Notes under the pieces: generated by a model
The model's database searches: none
Seen by the model: only the letters and a program-made list of their open reading frames with translations
What the model was told of the DNA's origin: nothing
Assembly: GCF_023898865.1 (NCBI RefSeq)
Contig: NZ_JAGSOV010000023.1
Coordinates: 62,001 to 126,000, forward strand
DNA: 64,000 bases
Direction of reading: 5' to 3'
Source: Pseudonocardia humida
GTDB lineage: Bacteria > Actinomycetota > Actinomycetes > Mycobacteriales > Pseudonocardiaceae
Made by a program: the position numbers and the translations under genes
In this document: one piece after another, positions 4,037 to 10,143 of the stretch
How the letters are laid out: each line of letters opens with the position of its first letter
How positions within the stretch are numbered: the stretch's first letter is position 1

Positions 4037-5629
4037 TCAGACCGGTGGTTCCAGCCGCAGCACCAGCAGCGCGATGTCGTCGGCGCGGTTGCGCCCGAAG
4101 TTCGCCAGCAGGTCGTCGCACACGTCCTCGGGGTCCGCGCGCAGGGTCGGCCAGGTGCGCAGGCGCTCCATCGCGGCGTCGATGTCGGTCGGCCGGTCCT
4201 CCAGCATCCCGTCGGTGACCAGGACGACGGTGCGCACGTCGGCCAGCGCCAGGACCGTCTCGGCCGGGTGCTCCAGGCCGACCCCCAGCATCGGCCCGGT
4301 CACCGGCGCGTACCGCGCCTCACCGGCGCCGACCAGCAGCGGGGGCGGGTGCCCGGCCACGGCGACGGACAGCGCGCCCGCCGCCGCGTCGATCAGCAGC
4401 AGGCACAGCGTGGCGTACTCGCGGCGGTGGTAGTGGCGCAGCACCCGCTCCAGCCGCCGCAGGATCTGCGCGGGGCCGTGGCCGTCGATCGCGTAGGCGC
4501 GCAGGGCGTGCCGCAGCTCCAACATGATCGTGGCGGCGTGGATCGAGTGCCCCGCGACGTCGCCGATCGCCACCAGCACGCGGCCGTCGGGGAGCTGGAC
4601 GATCTCGTAGAAGTCGCCGCCGATCTCGGCGTGCTGGACGGCGGGCAGGTAGCGCACGGCCGCCCGCAGGCCGGGCAGCGTGCCGAACCGCTCGGGCAGG
4701 AAGCTGCGCTGCAGGGTCAGCGCGAGGTCGTGCTCCTCGATGTGGACGCGCTGCGCGTCGGCGGCCATCGCCGCCGCCCCGGCCAGCTGCTGCAGGCCGT
4801 CGACGAGCCGCGTGGGCGGGGCCAACCGGCCGTGCACGACCACGCACACCGGCGACTGCCCGGGGCGCGACCGGGACAGCAGCGCCCAGCTGGTCTCGGC
4901 CGCGGCGTCCAGCACCTCGGCGACCGCGGCGGGCACCGGGCGCAGCGGCCCGTCCTGGGGAGCGGCGTCGAAGTGGGCCAGCAGCAGCGCCAGCACGGCG
5001 GGATCGAGCGAGGTGATCACCGGCGCGGCTCCCGGCGCCGCGACGGTGGCCTGGCGCAGGCGCTGGTCCGGGGCGGCGATGAGGGCGGTGGCGAACCCGG
5101 CGGCCATGTCGGCCGCGCCCACGGCCACCGCGGCCACCAGCATGTCGGCGTCCTCGGCGCGGTTCATCGTGATGGTCGCGGTGGTCAGGGCCGTCTGCTG
5201 GCGGGCGAGCTCCTCGGCGTGGGTGCGCGCCCGGTAGTAGCGCAGCACCGAGTTGACCGTGGCGACGAGCTCGGCGGGCTCGACCGGGTCGGTGAGGTAG
5301 GCGTCGGCACCGCGGTCGAGGCCGTGGGCGCGGTCGCGGCCCTCCACCGACGTGGCCGACAGGTGCACCACCGGCATCCCCAGCGCCGGATCGGTCTTGA
5401 TCTGCTCGCACACCTCGAACCCGGTCATGTCGGGCAGGCCCACGTCGAGCACGACGAGGTCGATCGGCAGGCTGCGCACCAGCGCCAACGCCTCGCCGCC
5501 GGTGGCCGCCTCGACCACCTGGAACCCGTCGCGGCGCAGCCAGCTGCCCACGATGTAGCGCGTCGCCGGGGCGTCGTCGACGACCAGGACCGTCACGGCG
5601 CCCTCCCCCGTCGGGTGCGGATCAGCCAT
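4037..5629 (-). CDS. Response regulator fused to PP2C (SpoIIE-type) phosphatase, RsbU-like
   Basis: 530 residues. A receiver domain fills about 12-130, with acidic pocket D18/D19 and phospho-acceptor D62 (VVLDVGLPDM). A variable middle region of about 150 residues follows. The C-terminal half is a PP2C phosphatase with the metal-binding motifs GGDFYE, GDVAGHS, TDGMLE and RADDIALLVLR. Proteins of this build dephosphorylate an anti-anti-sigma factor when the receiver is phosphorylated. The receiver has Asp at 114 (LTDPVEP) where most have the conserved Lys, so the phospho-switch may work differently. It is the last gene of the stressosome operon and overlaps the kinase gene by 8 bases, so that kinase is the obvious phosphate donor. 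No RsbT-binding N-terminal domain of classical RsbU is present. Confidence 0.88.
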   Translation of the reverse strand: MADPHPTGEGAVTVLVVDDAPATRYIVGSWLRRDGFQVVEAATGGEALALVRSLPIDLVVLDVGLPDMTGFEVCEQIKTDPALGMPVVHLSATSVEGRDRAHGLDRGADAYLTDPVEPAELVATVNSVLRYYRARTHAEELARQQTALTTATITMNRAEDADMLVAAVAVGAADMAAGFATALIAAPDQRLRQATVAAPGAAPVITSLDPAVLALLLAHFDAAPQDGPLRPVPAAVAEVLDAAAETSWALLSRSRPGQSPVCVVVHGRLAPPTRLVDGLQQLAGAAAMAADAQRVHIEEHDLALTLQRSFLPERFGTLPGLRAAVRYLPAVQHAEIGGDFYEIVQLPDGRVLVAIGDVAGHSIHAATIMLELRHALRAYAIDGHGPAQILRRLERVLRHYHRREYATLCLLLIDAAAGALSVAVAGHPPPLLVGAGEARYAPVTGPMLGVGLEHPAETVLALADVRTVVLVTDGMLEDRPTDIDAAMERLRTWPTLRADPEDVCDDLLANFGRNRADDIALLVLRLEPPV

Positions 5630-7382
5630 CGGTCCCTCCCACCAGCCGCGCGGCGTCGGCGGCCGCGGTGAGCAGCACCGCCGCGGTCAGGTTCGCCTTC
5701 GACAGCACGACCGCGCTGGCGGCCATCTCGGCGGTCCAGGCGGGGTCCAGGTCGGCCGAGGTGACCACGACCACCGGCAGCGCGGCCAGGACGGGGTCGG
5801 CGCGCATCCCGGCGAGCACGGCGCGGCCGTCCGGGGGTGGGATGTGCAGGTCGAGCACGAGCAGGTCGGGCGGCTCGGCGTGCAGCAGCCGCACGGTGGT
5901 GGCGCCGTCGCCCGCCTCGTCGACGCGCTCGGCCACGCCGTGCAGCGCCCGGCGCACCAGCGCCCGGAACGCCGGGTCGTCGTCGACGACCAGGACCCGC
6001 CCGAGCCGGGCGACCGCGGTGGCCGGGCCGGACACCGGCAACTGCAGCGTGGCGGTGGTCCCGACGCCGACCTCGCTGCTCAGCGCCAAGCTGCCGCCGA
6101 GGATCTCGGCGAGCCTGCGGGCCAACGGCAGCCCGAGCCCGGTACCCGCCGCCCCGACCTGGAGCGGCCCGGGCACCTGGTGGAACTCCTCGAACACCCG
6201 GCCGAGCTGGTCGGCGGGGATGCCGATCCCGGTGTCGGACACTGCGACCCGCAGCAGCCCGGCCCCCGGGTCGAAGGCGGCGGTGATGCGCACCTCGCCG
6301 CTGGTCGTGAACTTGAGCGCGTTGGTCGCCAGGTTGCGCACGATGGCGGTGAGCATGCCCGGGTCGGTGGACACCGGCGGGGTCCGCTCCGGCACGGCCA
6401 CCTCGAGCGCGACGCCGGGCGGCGTCAGCGGGAGCAGGGTCGCCCGCAGGTGCTGCAGCTGCCCGCCGACGTCGACCGGGGCCCACTGCGGCTCCATCCG
6501 ACCCGACTCCGCCTTCGCCACGTCGAGCAGCTCGTTGACCAGCGCGAGCAGCACCGCCCCCGAGTCGCGGATCATCTCGACCTGGGTCCGCTGCTCGCCG
6601 GTGAGCGGCTCGGAACGCGGGTCGAGCAGCAGCTTGGCCAGCCCGACCACCGAGTTGATCGGGGTCCGCAGCTCGTGGCTGACGTTCGCCCAGAACCGCG
6701 TCTTGCTCTCGCTGGCCTCGCGCAGCTGATCGGACTTCTCGTCCAGCTCGGCGTAGAGCGCCACCACCCCGCGGTTGGTCTCGTCCAGCTCGCCGGACAG
6801 CTCCGCGTGCAGGGCCAGCACCCCGCGGTTGGTCTCCTCCAGCTCGGCGTTGGCCTCCTCCAGCGCCTCCTGGCGGGCCTGCAGCACCTCCAGGGTGGAC
6901 AGCAGCTCCTGGTTCTGGACGCGCAGCTCCTCGAGCGCGGAGCTGGTCGTGGTGCCCCGGAACCGCTCGCGCAGGCCCTCGATCACCCCCGGGCGGCCCG
7001 GATCGGTGCCGGCGGGCAGCCGCTTGCCGAGCACGGCCGTGCCACCGCCCGCGGACTGGGTCACCTCGCAGCGGTCGGCGAGGCGCCCGGCCGAGCGGAC
7101 CCCCTCGGTGAGCTCCAGGCCCGGCAGCTCGCCCGCCCACCGGGCGGTGACCAGCAGCGCGGGCACGATCCCCCCGGCCAGCGACAGCACGATCTCGGTG
7201 CGCCTGCCCCGCAGCACCAGCTCGCGGCCCAGCTCCGACACCGCGGTCGCCACCCGGACCTGGTCCTGGTTCTCCAGGCCCACCGCCGCGGCCACCTCCC
7301 GGCCGCGCTGGCGGGCGACGAACACGTCGCGCTCCTCCACCAGCTGCAACCGCAGCACCTCGTGCTCGGCCGGCCCGGTCAC
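5622..7382 (-). CDS. Hybrid histidine kinase with degenerate RsbT-like N-terminus
   Basis: 586 residues. Residues 1-125 resemble an RsbT ATPase domain (RQRGREVAAAVGLENQDQ, then VATAVSELGRE), but the ATP-binding Asn is lost (E where RsbT has N) and the glycine loops are gone. Residues 150-225 form a coiled coil that includes a tandem copy of ETNRGV(L/V)AL. A HisKA domain carries H236 (NVSHELRTPINS). The ATPase has its N-box around 350-354 (NLATNALKF) and DTGIGIP at about 383. A receiver with D511 (VLDLHIPPPDG) ends the protein. It should autophosphorylate and pass phosphate to its own receiver or to the phosphatase encoded next. It lies 13 bases after the RsbX-like gene. No membrane segment is visible, so it is cytoplasmic. 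Confidence 0.88.
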   Translation of the reverse strand: MTGPAEHEVLRLQLVEERDVFVARQRGREVAAAVGLENQDQVRVATAVSELGRELVLRGRRTEIVLSLAGGIVPALLVTARWAGELPGLELTEGVRSAGRLADRCEVTQSAGGGTAVLGKRLPAGTDPGRPGVIEGLRERFRGTTTSSALEELRVQNQELLSTLEVLQARQEALEEANAELEETNRGVLALHAELSGELDETNRGVVALYAELDEKSDQLREASESKTRFWANVSHELRTPINSVVGLAKLLLDPRSEPLTGEQRTQVEMIRDSGAVLLALVNELLDVAKAESGRMEPQWAPVDVGGQLQHLRATLLPLTPPGVALEVAVPERTPPVSTDPGMLTAIVRNLATNALKFTTSGEVRITAAFDPGAGLLRVAVSDTGIGIPADQLGRVFEEFHQVPGPLQVGAAGTGLGLPLARRLAEILGGSLALSSEVGVGTTATLQLPVSGPATAVARLGRVLVVDDDPAFRALVRRALHGVAERVDEAGDGATTVRLLHAEPPDLLVLDLHIPPPDGRAVLAGMRADPVLAALPVVVVTSADLDPAWTAEMAASAVVLSKANLTAAVLLTAAADAARLVGGTDG

Positions 7383-7395
7383 GGCGGCGACCCGG

Positions 7396-8427
7396 TCACG
7401 GCAGCGGTCGGGCCACGACGATCCCGGCGTCGTCGTGCCGGATCCCGGCCTCGGCCAGCAGCGCAGCGGCCACCACGAGCGGCGGGCGGGTGAACAGGCC
7501 GTCGGTGCGCGCCGGGCCCCACCGACCGGTCAGGCCGTCGGAGTGCAGCACCACCAGCGCGTCGGCGGCGAGCGGGTACTCGAACGCGCGCACCGTGCGG
7601 GCCCGCACGCCGGCCACGCCCGGCATCGACACCGCGCTGCGCTTGGCGTCGCCGCTGACCACGACCCCGGCGATGTTGCCGACCCCGCAGAAGCGCACCA
7701 CCCCCGCGGCCGGGTCGAGCTCGGCCACGGCCACCGCGGCGCCGCGGGTGCCCGCGAGCGCGCTGTGGATCGAGGCCACCGCCTGCTCCGGCGAGACCGG
7801 CCACGGCCGGCCGCGCATCGCCGCGACCGCCCGCTGCGCGGCCGCCGCCGCGACCGGGCCGTGCCCGAGCCCGTCGCACATCAGCAGCATCGTGCGGTCG
7901 CCCTCGTGGCGGATCAGGTAGGCGTCGCCGCAGGCGGTCTCGCCGGTGATCGGCCGGGTCAGGCCGGCGGCGGTGGGGTCGTCGGGGACCGGGTCGCGCC
8001 GGTCGGCGTCGAACCGGGCCACCAGCACCGTGCCCAGCCCGGCCGGGGAGAAGACTGCCAGCCCGTCGGCCAGCCGGTCGATCGCGCCCAGGCCGATGCC
8101 CAGCGTCCCGGCCGTGGAGTGCCCGTCGCGACTGGCCGCCCGGACGTCGGCCATGCCGGGTCCGCGGTCGACGGCCACCAGCTCGACCGCGGTCGACGAC
8201 GCGCCGCGCAGGCTGCGCAGCAGGACCGCCCCGCCCCCGGCGTGGCGGACGACGTTCGTGGCGATCTCGGTGGCGGCCAGGCCCAGCTCGGCCACCCGCG
8301 GCGCCGGGAAGCCCAGCGTGGTGGCCAGCCGCTCGGCCGCGCGCCGCACGGAACCGGCCGCGCTCGGGTCGTCGACCCGCAGCCACTGCATGTCCTCGGC
8401 GACCGCGGGGGCCGCCGGGGCGGTCAC
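7396..8427 (-). CDS. ATPase-PP2C fusion (RsbX-like phosphatase)
   Basis: About 343 residues. The first ~130 form a HATPase_c domain of the RsbW/RsbT type (ELGLAATEIATNVVRHAGGG, DRGPGMAD, GIGLGAIDRLADG). The rest is a minimal PP2C phosphatase (GDAYLI, MCDGLGHGP, GNIAGVV, LHSDGLTGRW), the arrangement found in actinobacterial RsbX-like proteins. Bacillus RsbX dephosphorylates RsbS and RsbR to reset the stressosome; the same job is inferred here. I prefer the GTG at 8425-8427, which overlaps the rsbT stop as GTGA, over the GTG at 8434-8436 nine bases upstream. It follows rsbT directly. Confidence 0.85.
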   Translation of the reverse strand: MTAPAAPAVAEDMQWLRVDDPSAAGSVRRAAERLATTLGFPAPRVAELGLAATEIATNVVRHAGGGAVLLRSLRGASSTAVELVAVDRGPGMADVRAASRDGHSTAGTLGIGLGAIDRLADGLAVFSPAGLGTVLVARFDADRRDPVPDDPTAAGLTRPITGETACGDAYLIRHEGDRTMLLMCDGLGHGPVAAAAAQRAVAAMRGRPWPVSPEQAVASIHSALAGTRGAAVAVAELDPAAGVVRFCGVGNIAGVVVSGDAKRSAVSMPGVAGVRARTVRAFEYPLAADALVVLHSDGLTGRWGPARTDGLFTRPPLVVAAALLAEAGIRHDDAGIVVARPLP

Positions 8428-8837
8428 CGCGACCACTTGGTGATCGCGACGCTGGTGCCGCGCCCGACCTCGGTGTCGATGTCGAACTCGTCGACCAGGC
8501 GCTTCGCCCCGCTCAGCCCGAGCCCCAGCCCGCCACCGGACGTCCAGCCCGGGGTCAGCGCCAGGTCGAGGTCGGCGATGCCGGGGCCGGTGTCGCTGAA
8601 CACCGCGCGGATCCCGGAGCGGCCCCCGCGCTGCACGACCTCGATGCGCGCGGAGCCCGAACCGCCGTGCACCAGGGTGTTGCGGGCCAGCTCGCTGGCC
8701 GCGGTGACCAGCTTGGTCTGGTCGACCAGGGACAGCCGGATGGACTGCGCCTTGGACCGGACCAGCTGGCGCACCCGCACCACGTCGTCGCCGCTGGTCA
8801 CGGGCAGCTCGTCCACCCCGGTCGCCGACGTGCTCAA
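8424..8837 (-). CDS. rsbT: RsbT-like switch kinase
   Basis: 137 residues, the normal length of RsbT. It carries the N-box TAASELARNTLVHGG (N53), DTGPGIAD, and GLGLGLSGAKRLVDEFDI, then ends in KW near the C-terminus as RsbT does. RsbT phosphorylates RsbR and RsbS in the stressosome and, once released, activates a downstream phosphatase. The start is TTG at 8835-8837, overlapping the rsbS stop as TTGA. No ATG or GTG in this frame gives the right N-terminus without a large overlap. It is coupled at both ends (rsbS upstream, the RsbX-like gene downstream). Confidence 0.88.
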   Translation of the reverse strand: MSTSATGVDELPVTSGDDVVRVRQLVRSKAQSIRLSLVDQTKLVTAASELARNTLVHGGSGSARIEVVQRGGRSGIRAVFSDTGPGIADLDLALTPGWTSGGGLGLGLSGAKRLVDEFDIDTEVGRGTSVAITKWSR

Positions 8838-9298
8838 CGCCGGCTCGGATCCGGCCGGGCCCGCTCCCCCGCCGGGTCGTCGAGCGGGACGTAGTCGGCG
8901 TCGTCGTCGAGGTAGTCGAGGTCGTGGGCGGGGCGCCGCTCGGCGATCAGCCGGTCGAGGATCGCCCGGCCCTTCTCCAGGTCCAGCGCGGTGCGCACGC
9001 CTTCGAGGGACAACCCCAGCTCGACCAGCGTGATGGCCACCGCCGGGCGCATCCCGACCACGACCGTCTCGGCGTCGAGCACCCGCGACAGCGCCGCGAT
9101 CGAGCTGAACATCCGCCCGATGAACGAGTCGACGATGTCGACCGCGGAGATGTCGATGATGACGCCGCGGGCGCCGGTCGAGACGATCCGCTCGGCCAGC
9201 TCCTCCTGCAGCGCCAGCACGTCGTCGTCCTGCAGGTCGACCTGGATGGACACCAGCAGCGCGTCGCCCAGGCGCAGGACCGGAACCTGCTGGGTCAC
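8834..9298 (-). CDS. rsbS: RsbS-like stressosome scaffold (STAS domain)
   Basis: 154 residues. A single STAS domain spans about 5-115, with DISAVDIVDSFIGRM around S58, the serine that RsbT phosphorylates in the Bacillus protein (S59). A tail of ~35 acidic and proline-rich residues follows (YLDDDADYVPLDD), longer than in Bacillus. The GTG start at 9296-9298 overlaps the rsbR stop as GTGA, which fixes the start. The protein should co-assemble with RsbR into the stressosome core and hold RsbT. Confidence 0.88.
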   Translation of the reverse strand: MTQQVPVLRLGDALLVSIQVDLQDDDVLALQEELAERIVSTGARGVIIDISAVDIVDSFIGRMFSSIAALSRVLDAETVVVGMRPAVAITLVELGLSLEGVRTALDLEKGRAILDRLIAERRPAHDLDYLDDDADYVPLDDPAGERARPDPSRR

Positions 9299-10143
9299 CG
9301 ACGGCCCTCGCCGCGCCTGCGCACCACCTCGACACCGCTGCCGCGCAGCGCGTGCAGCAGGGCGTCGGCCAGGTTCGCCTTGGTGGGGATGTCGCCGAAC
9401 TCGATGCCCAGCGCCACGATGGTCTGGGCGATCTGCGGGCGGATCCCGGAGATGGTGCACTGCGCGCCCATCAGCCGGGCCGCGACCACGGTCTTGAGCA
9501 GGTGCTGGGCCACCTCGGTGTCGACCGCGGGCACCCCGGTGATGTCGATGATCGCGTGCTCGGAGCCGGTGTCGACCAGGGTCTGCAGCAGCTTCTCCAT
9601 CACGATCTGGGTGCGCGCGGAGTCCAGCGTGCCGATCAGCGGGACGGCCACGACCCCCTCCCAGAGCTTGACCACCGGCGTGGAGAGCTCCATGAGCTGC
9701 TCGGACTGCTCGGCGATCACCTCTTCGCGGGCCCGGACGTAGCTGTCGAAGGTCAGCAGGCCCAGCGCGTCCACCCAGCGGGAGGAGACGATCAGCACCT
9801 CGGCGGAGCGCCCGGTCCGGGTGGCCAGCTCGAACAGCGCGTCCTTGAGGCAGAAGACGCTCACCGCGGTCTCGCTCGGGGTGAACCCGCGCCGCGCGCG
9901 GTCGCGCGACAGCTCCGACAGCAGCGCCCGCACCTCGCCGTAGGCCTCGTGGTCGAGGTCGAGCCCGCCCGAGGTCACGGCCTTGGACAGCGCCGAGAGC
10001 AGGTCGCGGAAGGCGCGTTCGAGCTCGGCCGCCGCCGTGCGCCCCTGCAGGTGCGCCGAGGCGGCGCGCAACCACTGGTCGAGCAGCGCCTGCTCGTCCG
10101 CCAGCAGCAGCTCCAGCAGCTGCTGCCCGTCGTTCTCCGCCAT
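9295..10143 (-). CDS. rsbR: RsbR-like stressosome sensor (globin-like N-domain + STAS)
   Basis: 282 residues. Residues 1-150 are helical, matching the non-haem globin-like sensory half of RsbR. Residues 160-272 form a STAS domain with GTLDSARTQ (S175 at the T171 position of Bacillus RsbRA) and DITGVPAVDTEVAQ (T209 at the T205 position), then ISGIRPQIAQTIVALGI. Both phospho-acceptor positions are therefore kept, one as Ser. The ATG at 10141-10143 opens the operon. The 213-base gap to the divergent lacI contains TAGGGT on this strand as a possible -10, but no clear -35. The signal it senses cannot be read from sequence. Confidence 0.88.
   Translation of the reverse strand: MAENDGQQLLELLLADEQALLDQWLRAASAHLQGRTAAAELERAFRDLLSALSKAVTSGGLDLDHEAYGEVRALLSELSRDRARRGFTPSETAVSVFCLKDALFELATRTGRSAEVLIVSSRWVDALGLLTFDSYVRAREEVIAEQSEQLMELSTPVVKLWEGVVAVPLIGTLDSARTQIVMEKLLQTLVDTGSEHAIIDITGVPAVDTEVAQHLLKTVVAARLMGAQCTISGIRPQIAQTIVALGIEFGDIPTKANLADALLHALRGSGVEVVRRRGEGRR

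Follow-up and report, generated by a model that had tools for sequence, protein, structure and literature searches.

How the signal leaves a stressosome that lacks RsbU was left open in the accessible part of PMC9237108, and the same question is raised by a six-gene operon of Pseudonocardia humida, located at positions 4037-10143 of the window (the whole 64,000-nucleotide stretch of contig NZ_JAGSOV010000023.1 that was analysed). This operon would help to explain that route. We consider it reasonably probable that, once released by the stressosome, RsbT acts on the histidine kinase (HK) encoded in the operon, which signals to a PP2C phosphatase carrying a receiver (REC) domain. The direct client of the stressosome would then be a HK instead of RsbU, and the client module would be a catalytically dead RsbT-like domain followed by a continuous helix with one or, as here, two TNxGV motifs.

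The gene order rsbR, rsbS, rsbT, rsbX-like, HK and REC-PP2C, described in an earlier sequence-only reading of this DNA, was borne out, with all six genes and their parts on the minus strand. By Pfam, rsbR (9295..10143) encodes RsbRD_N and STAS domains, rsbS (8834..9298) a STAS domain, rsbT (8424..8837, from a TTG start) a HATPase_c domain with intact ATP motifs, and the rsbX-like gene (7396..8436) a fusion of HATPase_c_2 and SpoIIE phosphatase domains; they are followed by the HK (5622..7382; pseudo-RsbT domain and linker helix, then HisKA, HATPase_c and REC by Pfam) and the output protein REC-PP2C (4037..5629; REC and SpoIIE). The coupling by overlaps that had been reported holds for four of the five junctions if rsbT starts at the TTG, an in-frame GTG 36 nt downstream being an alternative start; the rsbX/HK junction is a gap of 13 nt. 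The Thr of the RsbR motif ITGVxxVDT was kept in 77/77 relatives and the Ser of the RsbS motif VDSFxGR in 76/77, both of which we take to be the phosphorylatable residues, while the N-box, G1 and G2 patterns of RsbT were all matched in 77/77. The parts of an RsbRSTX module were all found, namely an RsbR with sensor and STAS domains, a STAS-type RsbS, an RsbT with ATP motifs and an RsbX-type phosphatase, and the set looks like a stressosome module RsbR-RsbS-RsbT with its resetting phosphatase RsbX, whose assembly into a complex is putative.

To place this order among relatives, 297 genomes of the family were searched with the HK N-terminal domain, which gave 49 strong matches (E <= 1.7e-11), 38 of whose loci were fetched, and 19 weaker rows, three of them outside the fetched set. 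The order R-S-T-X-HK-PP2C was present in 37 of the 38 loci, the remaining one (L068) ending at a contig edge. Among named genomes, 196 stretches held a relative of the HK N-terminus, and the best 80 were taken; in this set, chosen by the HK N-terminus and with near relatives kept, the complete order was found in 77 loci from Pseudonocardiales, Micromonosporales and Streptosporangiales. Two of the exceptions were cut by contig ends (L121 and L143) and the third (L155) showed no R, S or T gene upstream. The neighbourhood survey suggested by the sequence-only reading recovered the same arrangement repeatedly. In a phylum sample of 396 genomes the HK N-terminal profile matched 40, and the 20 loci examined included the window and two other full-operon kinases (G500 and G403), together with 16 RsbT proteins with intact N-box and G1. 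The last locus of that sample (L198 7171-8397, G579) is a divergent kinase, a frame of 409 residues in which a kinase-like part follows a degenerate RsbT-like N-terminus; it adjoins a REC-PAS protein, with no R-S-T within the fetched 16 kb. The contig of L121, labelled Candidatus Melainabacteria, bears a fragment of the actinobacterial operon, and its label is probably wrong because G011, the genome that matches it, is assigned to the same family as the window.

The kinase had been said to carry a degenerate RsbT-like N-terminus, and structure prediction agrees. The AlphaFold2 model of residues 1-125 (7008..7382; predicted local distance difference test, pLDDT, 94.4) matched RsbW with Z 15.3 and a root-mean-square deviation of 1.6 Å over 103 residues, SpoIIAB and UsfX scoring about 13-14, and a profile-profile comparison of the HK N-terminus with RsbT gave E 1.7e-7; a failure to adopt such a fold was not observed. 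A PDB sequence search with the domain gave no meaningful match, and it was the fold search that found RsbW and SpoIIAB. Pfam had no match to residues 1-136 of the window protein, and HATPase_c_2 was matched, weakly, by 4/66 relatives. The catalytic N-box Asn was missing at the aligned place in 80/80 relatives, and loose G1 and G2 patterns were matched in 7/80 and 9/80, respectively (L069 and L089 were omitted from one alignment, in which the references fell out of register). Since the RsbW fold is present while the N-box Asn and the Gly-rich motifs are gone, the domain is kin to RsbT by fold and not an active RsbT; in the accessible text of PMC4166321, change of the same Asn (N49A) abolishes RsbT activity. 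The residues matching RsbW R23, S48 and E49, which touch RsbV according to the part of PMC7340262 available, were kept (Arg and Ser in 66/66, S[ED] in 80/80). The HK N-terminus would seem suited to binding but not to catalysis.

The best-conserved input element of the HK is not this domain but the linker helix behind it, which the sequence-only reading had overlooked. Residues 149-253 (6624..6938) are predicted as a single helix running into HisKA, in a monomer model (predicted template modelling score, pTM, 0.56) from which the secondary structure alone was taken. Between the pseudo-RsbT domain and the kinase core, the helix carries the motif E-L-x-x-T-N-x-G-V-x-A-L in two copies, TNRGVLALHAEL at residues 184-195 (6798..6833) and TNRGVVALYAEL at residues 202-213 (6744..6779), the Thr of the second copy standing 34 residues ahead of the phospho-acceptor His236 (SHELRTP; 6675..6677). 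Among 81 HKs selected by their N-terminal domain and not by the linker, the Thr-His distance was 34 in all (81/81) and the motif was doubled, with copies 18 residues apart, in 80/81; the distance was also 34 in 8/8 measured HKs from other records. When residues 1-460 were divided into 46 ten-residue blocks, ETNRGVVALY (residues 201-210) showed the highest conservation (0.93), compared with 0.81 for the block of the phospho-His, and the pseudo-RsbT domain was far less conserved than the linker. A linker search of the window genome gave one match at E 0.01 or better, in this HK.

The motif also occurs outside this kinase family. A linker search of the 297 family genomes gave 78 matches, comprising 49 strong ones (these HKs), which come from exactly those 49 genomes that gave strong pseudo-RsbT matches, and 29 weaker ones. 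All 20 weaker matches that were fetched lie in frames matching the REC-PP2C profile, and although these loci were themselves found by linker similarity, 18 of them stand beside rsbT (14 R-S-T-X-PP2C operons and four bare rsbT-PP2C pairs), two phosphatases being alone. In loci reached via RsbT, TN[AV]GLLALH was present in 13/13 R-S-T-X-PP2C operons; L248 and L249, fetched alongside, showed no R, S, T or X and are outside that count. The motif columns of these 13 and of the 20 weaker-match loci were set by the search pattern, so their invariance is partly circular. The phosphatases of the bare pairs (L300-L303, from G277, G083, G245 and G253) carry TNSGVVAM; R, S and X were not matched within the fetched 12.5 kb, and the same four genomes also have a motif-bearing HK.

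On plasmids, 75 records matched the linker and 13 were fetched. Seven of these bear the motif: six have R-S-T-X upstream, and in the seventh the locus begins at the origin of the circular record, with RsbT near the other end. No R, S or T gene lies close to any of the six plasmid kinases that lack the motif; the T signal of 15 bits in L214 falls inside its kinase. A second plasmid sample was collected by RsbT first (104 records, 16 loci fetched, 15 after setting aside L269, which resembles L266). Eight of the 15 outputs bear the motif, namely the HKs of Embleya, Sphingomonas and Halobaculum and five Streptomyces outputs, of which four are phosphatases by Pfam or annotation and one (L258) is unannotated; the rest are one haloarchaeal protein with a weaker motif, four HKs without it, one RsbU and one Vibrio HK. 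The motif was found beside rsbT also in Deinococcus, Proteobacteria and one haloarchaeon. The HKs of Variovorax and Xanthomonas, in R-S-T-X operons, start about 35 residues before the motif and have no other input domain; they carry the motif without a detectable RsbT-like domain, and so do PP2Cs of the R-S-T-X-PP2C type, of which the two tested (L242 and L247) did not score significantly. In the haloarchaeal plasmids L263 and L268, genes for a STAS protein, an anti-sigma regulatory factor (RsbT-like), a phosphatase/ATP-binding protein and a kinase or PAS protein are ordered as in stressosomes, and the motif reads TNEGMVAL in L268 and, in a weaker form, TTKGTLQL in L263.

In Bacillus, RsbT phosphorylates RsbS and RsbR under stress and then leaves the complex. 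The same is envisaged here: stress would lead RsbT to phosphorylate RsbS/RsbR and leave the stressosome, and free RsbT would act on the HK linker, shifting the kinase between states. The dead RsbT domain may serve as a partner in cis that pairs with RsbT, as a decoy, or as a dock to the stressosome core. The HK would signal to Asp62 of REC-PP2C, whose phosphatase may act on a RsbV-like STAS protein encoded elsewhere, and RsbX would reset the stressosome. Binding of RsbT, the direction of the switch, the phosphotransfer and the substrate of the phosphatase are what we infer in this scheme. According to the accessible text of PMC12143880, free Bacillus RsbT orders the linker of RsbU and activates it, an effect that is altered when T89, R91, G92 or Q94 is changed. 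The parts of RsbU run, as those predicted for the HK do, from an N-terminal domain through a coiled-coil linker to the catalytic domain, with RsbT as the proposed activator, and the HK motif has T89 and G92 in common with it and often R91; it is because the motif is placed like the RsbU linker site and shares these residues that RsbT is proposed to act on the HK linker. Unlike in RsbU, a dead RsbT replaces RsbU_N, the effector is a HK and the Arg is not invariant. The same text proposes that phosphatases, cyclases and kinases have exchanged RsbU_N.

Several observations weigh against this scheme. The position matching R91 of RsbU is Arg in 59/81 HKs, Gln in 17/81, and Ser or Ala in most of the PP2C types, and TxRG is wholly missing from the Lysinibacillus RsbU, which served as the positive control for RsbU_N; with the Arg variable and this RsbU lacking TxRG, the HK linker resembles that of RsbU in part. 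Two of the motif phosphatases (L314 and L315) have no rsbT, and the relative L155 has the HK without R-S-T. The RsbT-linked HKs of Paraburkholderia (two), Alloyangia and Phaeobacter lack the motif while keeping an RsbT-like domain with ATP motifs, and the RsbT-linked HK of Vibrio shows neither motif nor RsbT-like domain by hidden Markov model (HMM). A Pro of the window RsbT aligns with what we take to be D92 of Bacillus RsbT. Downstream, the PP2C receiver has no canonical Lys in any of 79 relatives, with Glu (n = 65) or Asp (n = 14) instead. A residue-for-residue equation of TNRG with RsbU T89-x-R91-G92 is no more than suggestive, the Arg being variable and TxRG missing from the Lysinibacillus RsbU, and a very degenerate RsbT-like domain in the Vibrio HK (L267), a resemblance by eye with no HMM match, is not claimed. 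Several actinobacterial RsbU_N proteins end the domain with x-R-G-[FY] (by eye, uncounted).

A second account, which goes back to the sequence-only reading and is compatible with the action of RsbT on the linker, is that the HK binds to the RsbR/RsbS core through its pseudo-RsbT domain, which would compete with RsbT or sense the state of RsbT, the HK being held and released as RsbT is. The RsbW fold and the conserved Arg, Ser and acidic residues equivalent to RsbV contacts speak for it, as do the Paraburkholderia, Alloyangia and Phaeobacter HKs, which have the domain and no motif. Nevertheless, we regard docking as doubtful, because the Variovorax and Xanthomonas HKs and the 13/13 PP2C outputs share such operons and the motif, those HKs having no RsbT-like domain and the PP2Cs L242 and L247 no significant one, and because conservation of the linker far exceeds that of the domain.

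It is unlikely that the linker is an ordinary signalling helix, in which the motif keeps the coiled-coil register without contacting RsbT and the HK N-terminus binds some other signal. The single predicted helix into HisKA and its fixed register would fit, and helices before H-boxes are known, for instance in RsbK (accessible part of PMC4574943). However, the genome has many kinases and one linker match, 18 of the 20 weaker matches fetched are phosphatases beside rsbT, and the six fetched plasmid kinases that resemble the linker but not in the motif are not accompanied by R, S or T genes.

An alternative RsbT target was sought across the genome (8.29 Mb, 129 contigs; closest named match Pseudonocardia lacus, 84% in the HK N-terminus), which holds one rsbT, apart from a weak RsbT match inside rsbX, one RsbRD_N protein, 20 SpoIIE-domain matches and 30 STAS matches. 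An HMM search of this genome for RsbU_N gave no match (B. subtilis control positive), and Pfam found no RsbU_N domain in the HK or in REC-PP2C. With one rsbT, one RsbRD_N protein and no RsbU_N, the ordinary RsbU elsewhere that had been named as a possible true target was therefore not observed, and this candidate was rejected, although the 20 SpoIIE matches could hide a very divergent RsbU. RsbU_N was found in 1/297 family genomes, adjoining a different rsbT-R-S cluster, and in 24/396 phylum genomes, in none of the three bearing this operon. It is highly improbable that one of the other phosphatases is an unrecognised RsbU and the target of RsbT, and that the HK and PP2C form an independent two-component pair that happens to share the operon: the SpoIIE and STAS matches and the weak conservation of RsbU_N leave some room for it, and the negative HMM result, the co-occurrence and tight junctions across three orders, and the sole linker match of the genome in this HK argue against it.

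On the output side, the phospho-His and the N-box Asn, G1 and G2 residues of the kinase core were kept in 81/81 HKs. The C-terminal receiver of the HK (residues 463-555, 5718..5996, by Pfam) is optional: it was absent in 22/81 HKs and had another residue at the phospho-Asp column in 19 more, so a relay through it is dispensable and was rejected as a general feature. Output through the kinase and REC-PP2C, which the sequence-only reading proposed, is the natural reading of the operon. The Asp62 of the PP2C receiver (5255..5590) was invariant in 36/36, and the motifs GGD, GDVxGH, TDG and DD of the SpoIIE/PP2C domain (4052..4591, by Pfam) were kept in 79/79 relatives. The description of the phosphatase as phospho-activated found no support, given the replaced receiver Lys and given that its analogues RsbY and RsfR are contrasted as opposite in sign of control in the accessible text of PMC10950880. 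In the other lineages examined, the receiver encoded behind the kinase belongs to a protein with a further kinase (D. radiodurans, Deinococcus KNUC1210, Variovorax and Xanthomonas) or with a GGDEF domain (D. psychrotolerans).

A midpoint-rooted tree of RsbT-like domains (65 rows) separated the fused domains of all sampled lineages from the free RsbT and the rsbX domains (branch 98/94). Caballeronia clustered with the dead domains of Actinobacteria (99/95), two Streptomyces phosphatase domains nested inside the actinobacterial dead set (100/96), and the ATP motifs were retained in the fused domains of Deinococcus and Sphingomonas. We give an even chance to the broader proposal that the TNxGV helix is a general, predicted RsbT-receiving module of RsbU-less stressosomes, in many cases headed by a fused RsbT domain, live or dead, and swapped between HKs and PP2Cs in Actinobacteria, Deinococcota, Proteobacteria and haloarchaea, and that the fused domain had a single origin, became inactive in one lineage and was handed on by kinases to phosphatases of Streptomyces. 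In the same tree the HATPase_c_2 domain of the rsbX-like protein (7396-8436) forms a separate long branch; as it matched G1 in 76/80 and G2 in 80/80 relatives, this protein may unite a kinase and a phosphatase.

A type of stressosome module with two-component proteins behind it is already on record in the accessible part of PMC9237108, where the Vibrio vulnificus-type RSTX likewise has rsbR-S-T-X directly before a kinase and a receiver protein, with no RsbU; most downstream proteins there are without RsbU_N, and contact of RsbT with VvD1 was not detected. That part names no RsbT-like domain or linker motif, whereas the window kinase has both and the last gene encodes a REC-PP2C. The B. cereus RsbK/RsbY and M. 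smegmatis RsfS/RsfR pairs also feed a partner switch through a kinase and a REC-PP2C, but in the available text of PMC10950880 RsfS has CHASE3, RsbK has CHASE3 and GAF, and neither is linked to a stressosome. The window HK differs from both in belonging to a stressosome operon and in having only the pseudo-RsbT domain and the linker as N-terminal parts, Pfam giving no match to CHASE3 or GAF in it. Its N-terminal domain has the fold and partner-contact residues of the RsbW/SpoIIAB/RsbT family (accessible parts of PMC7340262 and PMC4166321), but, unlike those proteins, it lacks the ATP motifs and is fused to a histidine kinase. Neither a fused RsbT domain nor the TNxGV (TNRGV) motif was named in the literature searched, which excluded most subscription papers. 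A short motif that, at fixed register to the catalytic His, predicts RsbT clients would bring the question within reach of straightforward binding and substitution experiments across many organisms, and the fusion of a dead RsbT to a protein that RsbT probably targets would, if true, mean that bacterial stress signalling puts a pseudo-enzyme to unusual use.

Two minor observations concern the RsbT-first plasmid sample and the Streptomyces outputs. L266 (labelled Lysinibacillus) and L269 (labelled Stenotrophomonas) have the same reading frame at the same coordinates, with 64% ungapped positional identity, and one of the two plasmid labels may be wrong. In Streptomyces microflavus, an annotated SigF sigma gene (L255 9742-10381) lies close to the R-S-T-X-phosphatase operon, a neighbour that hints at the final target of this Streptomyces type of output.

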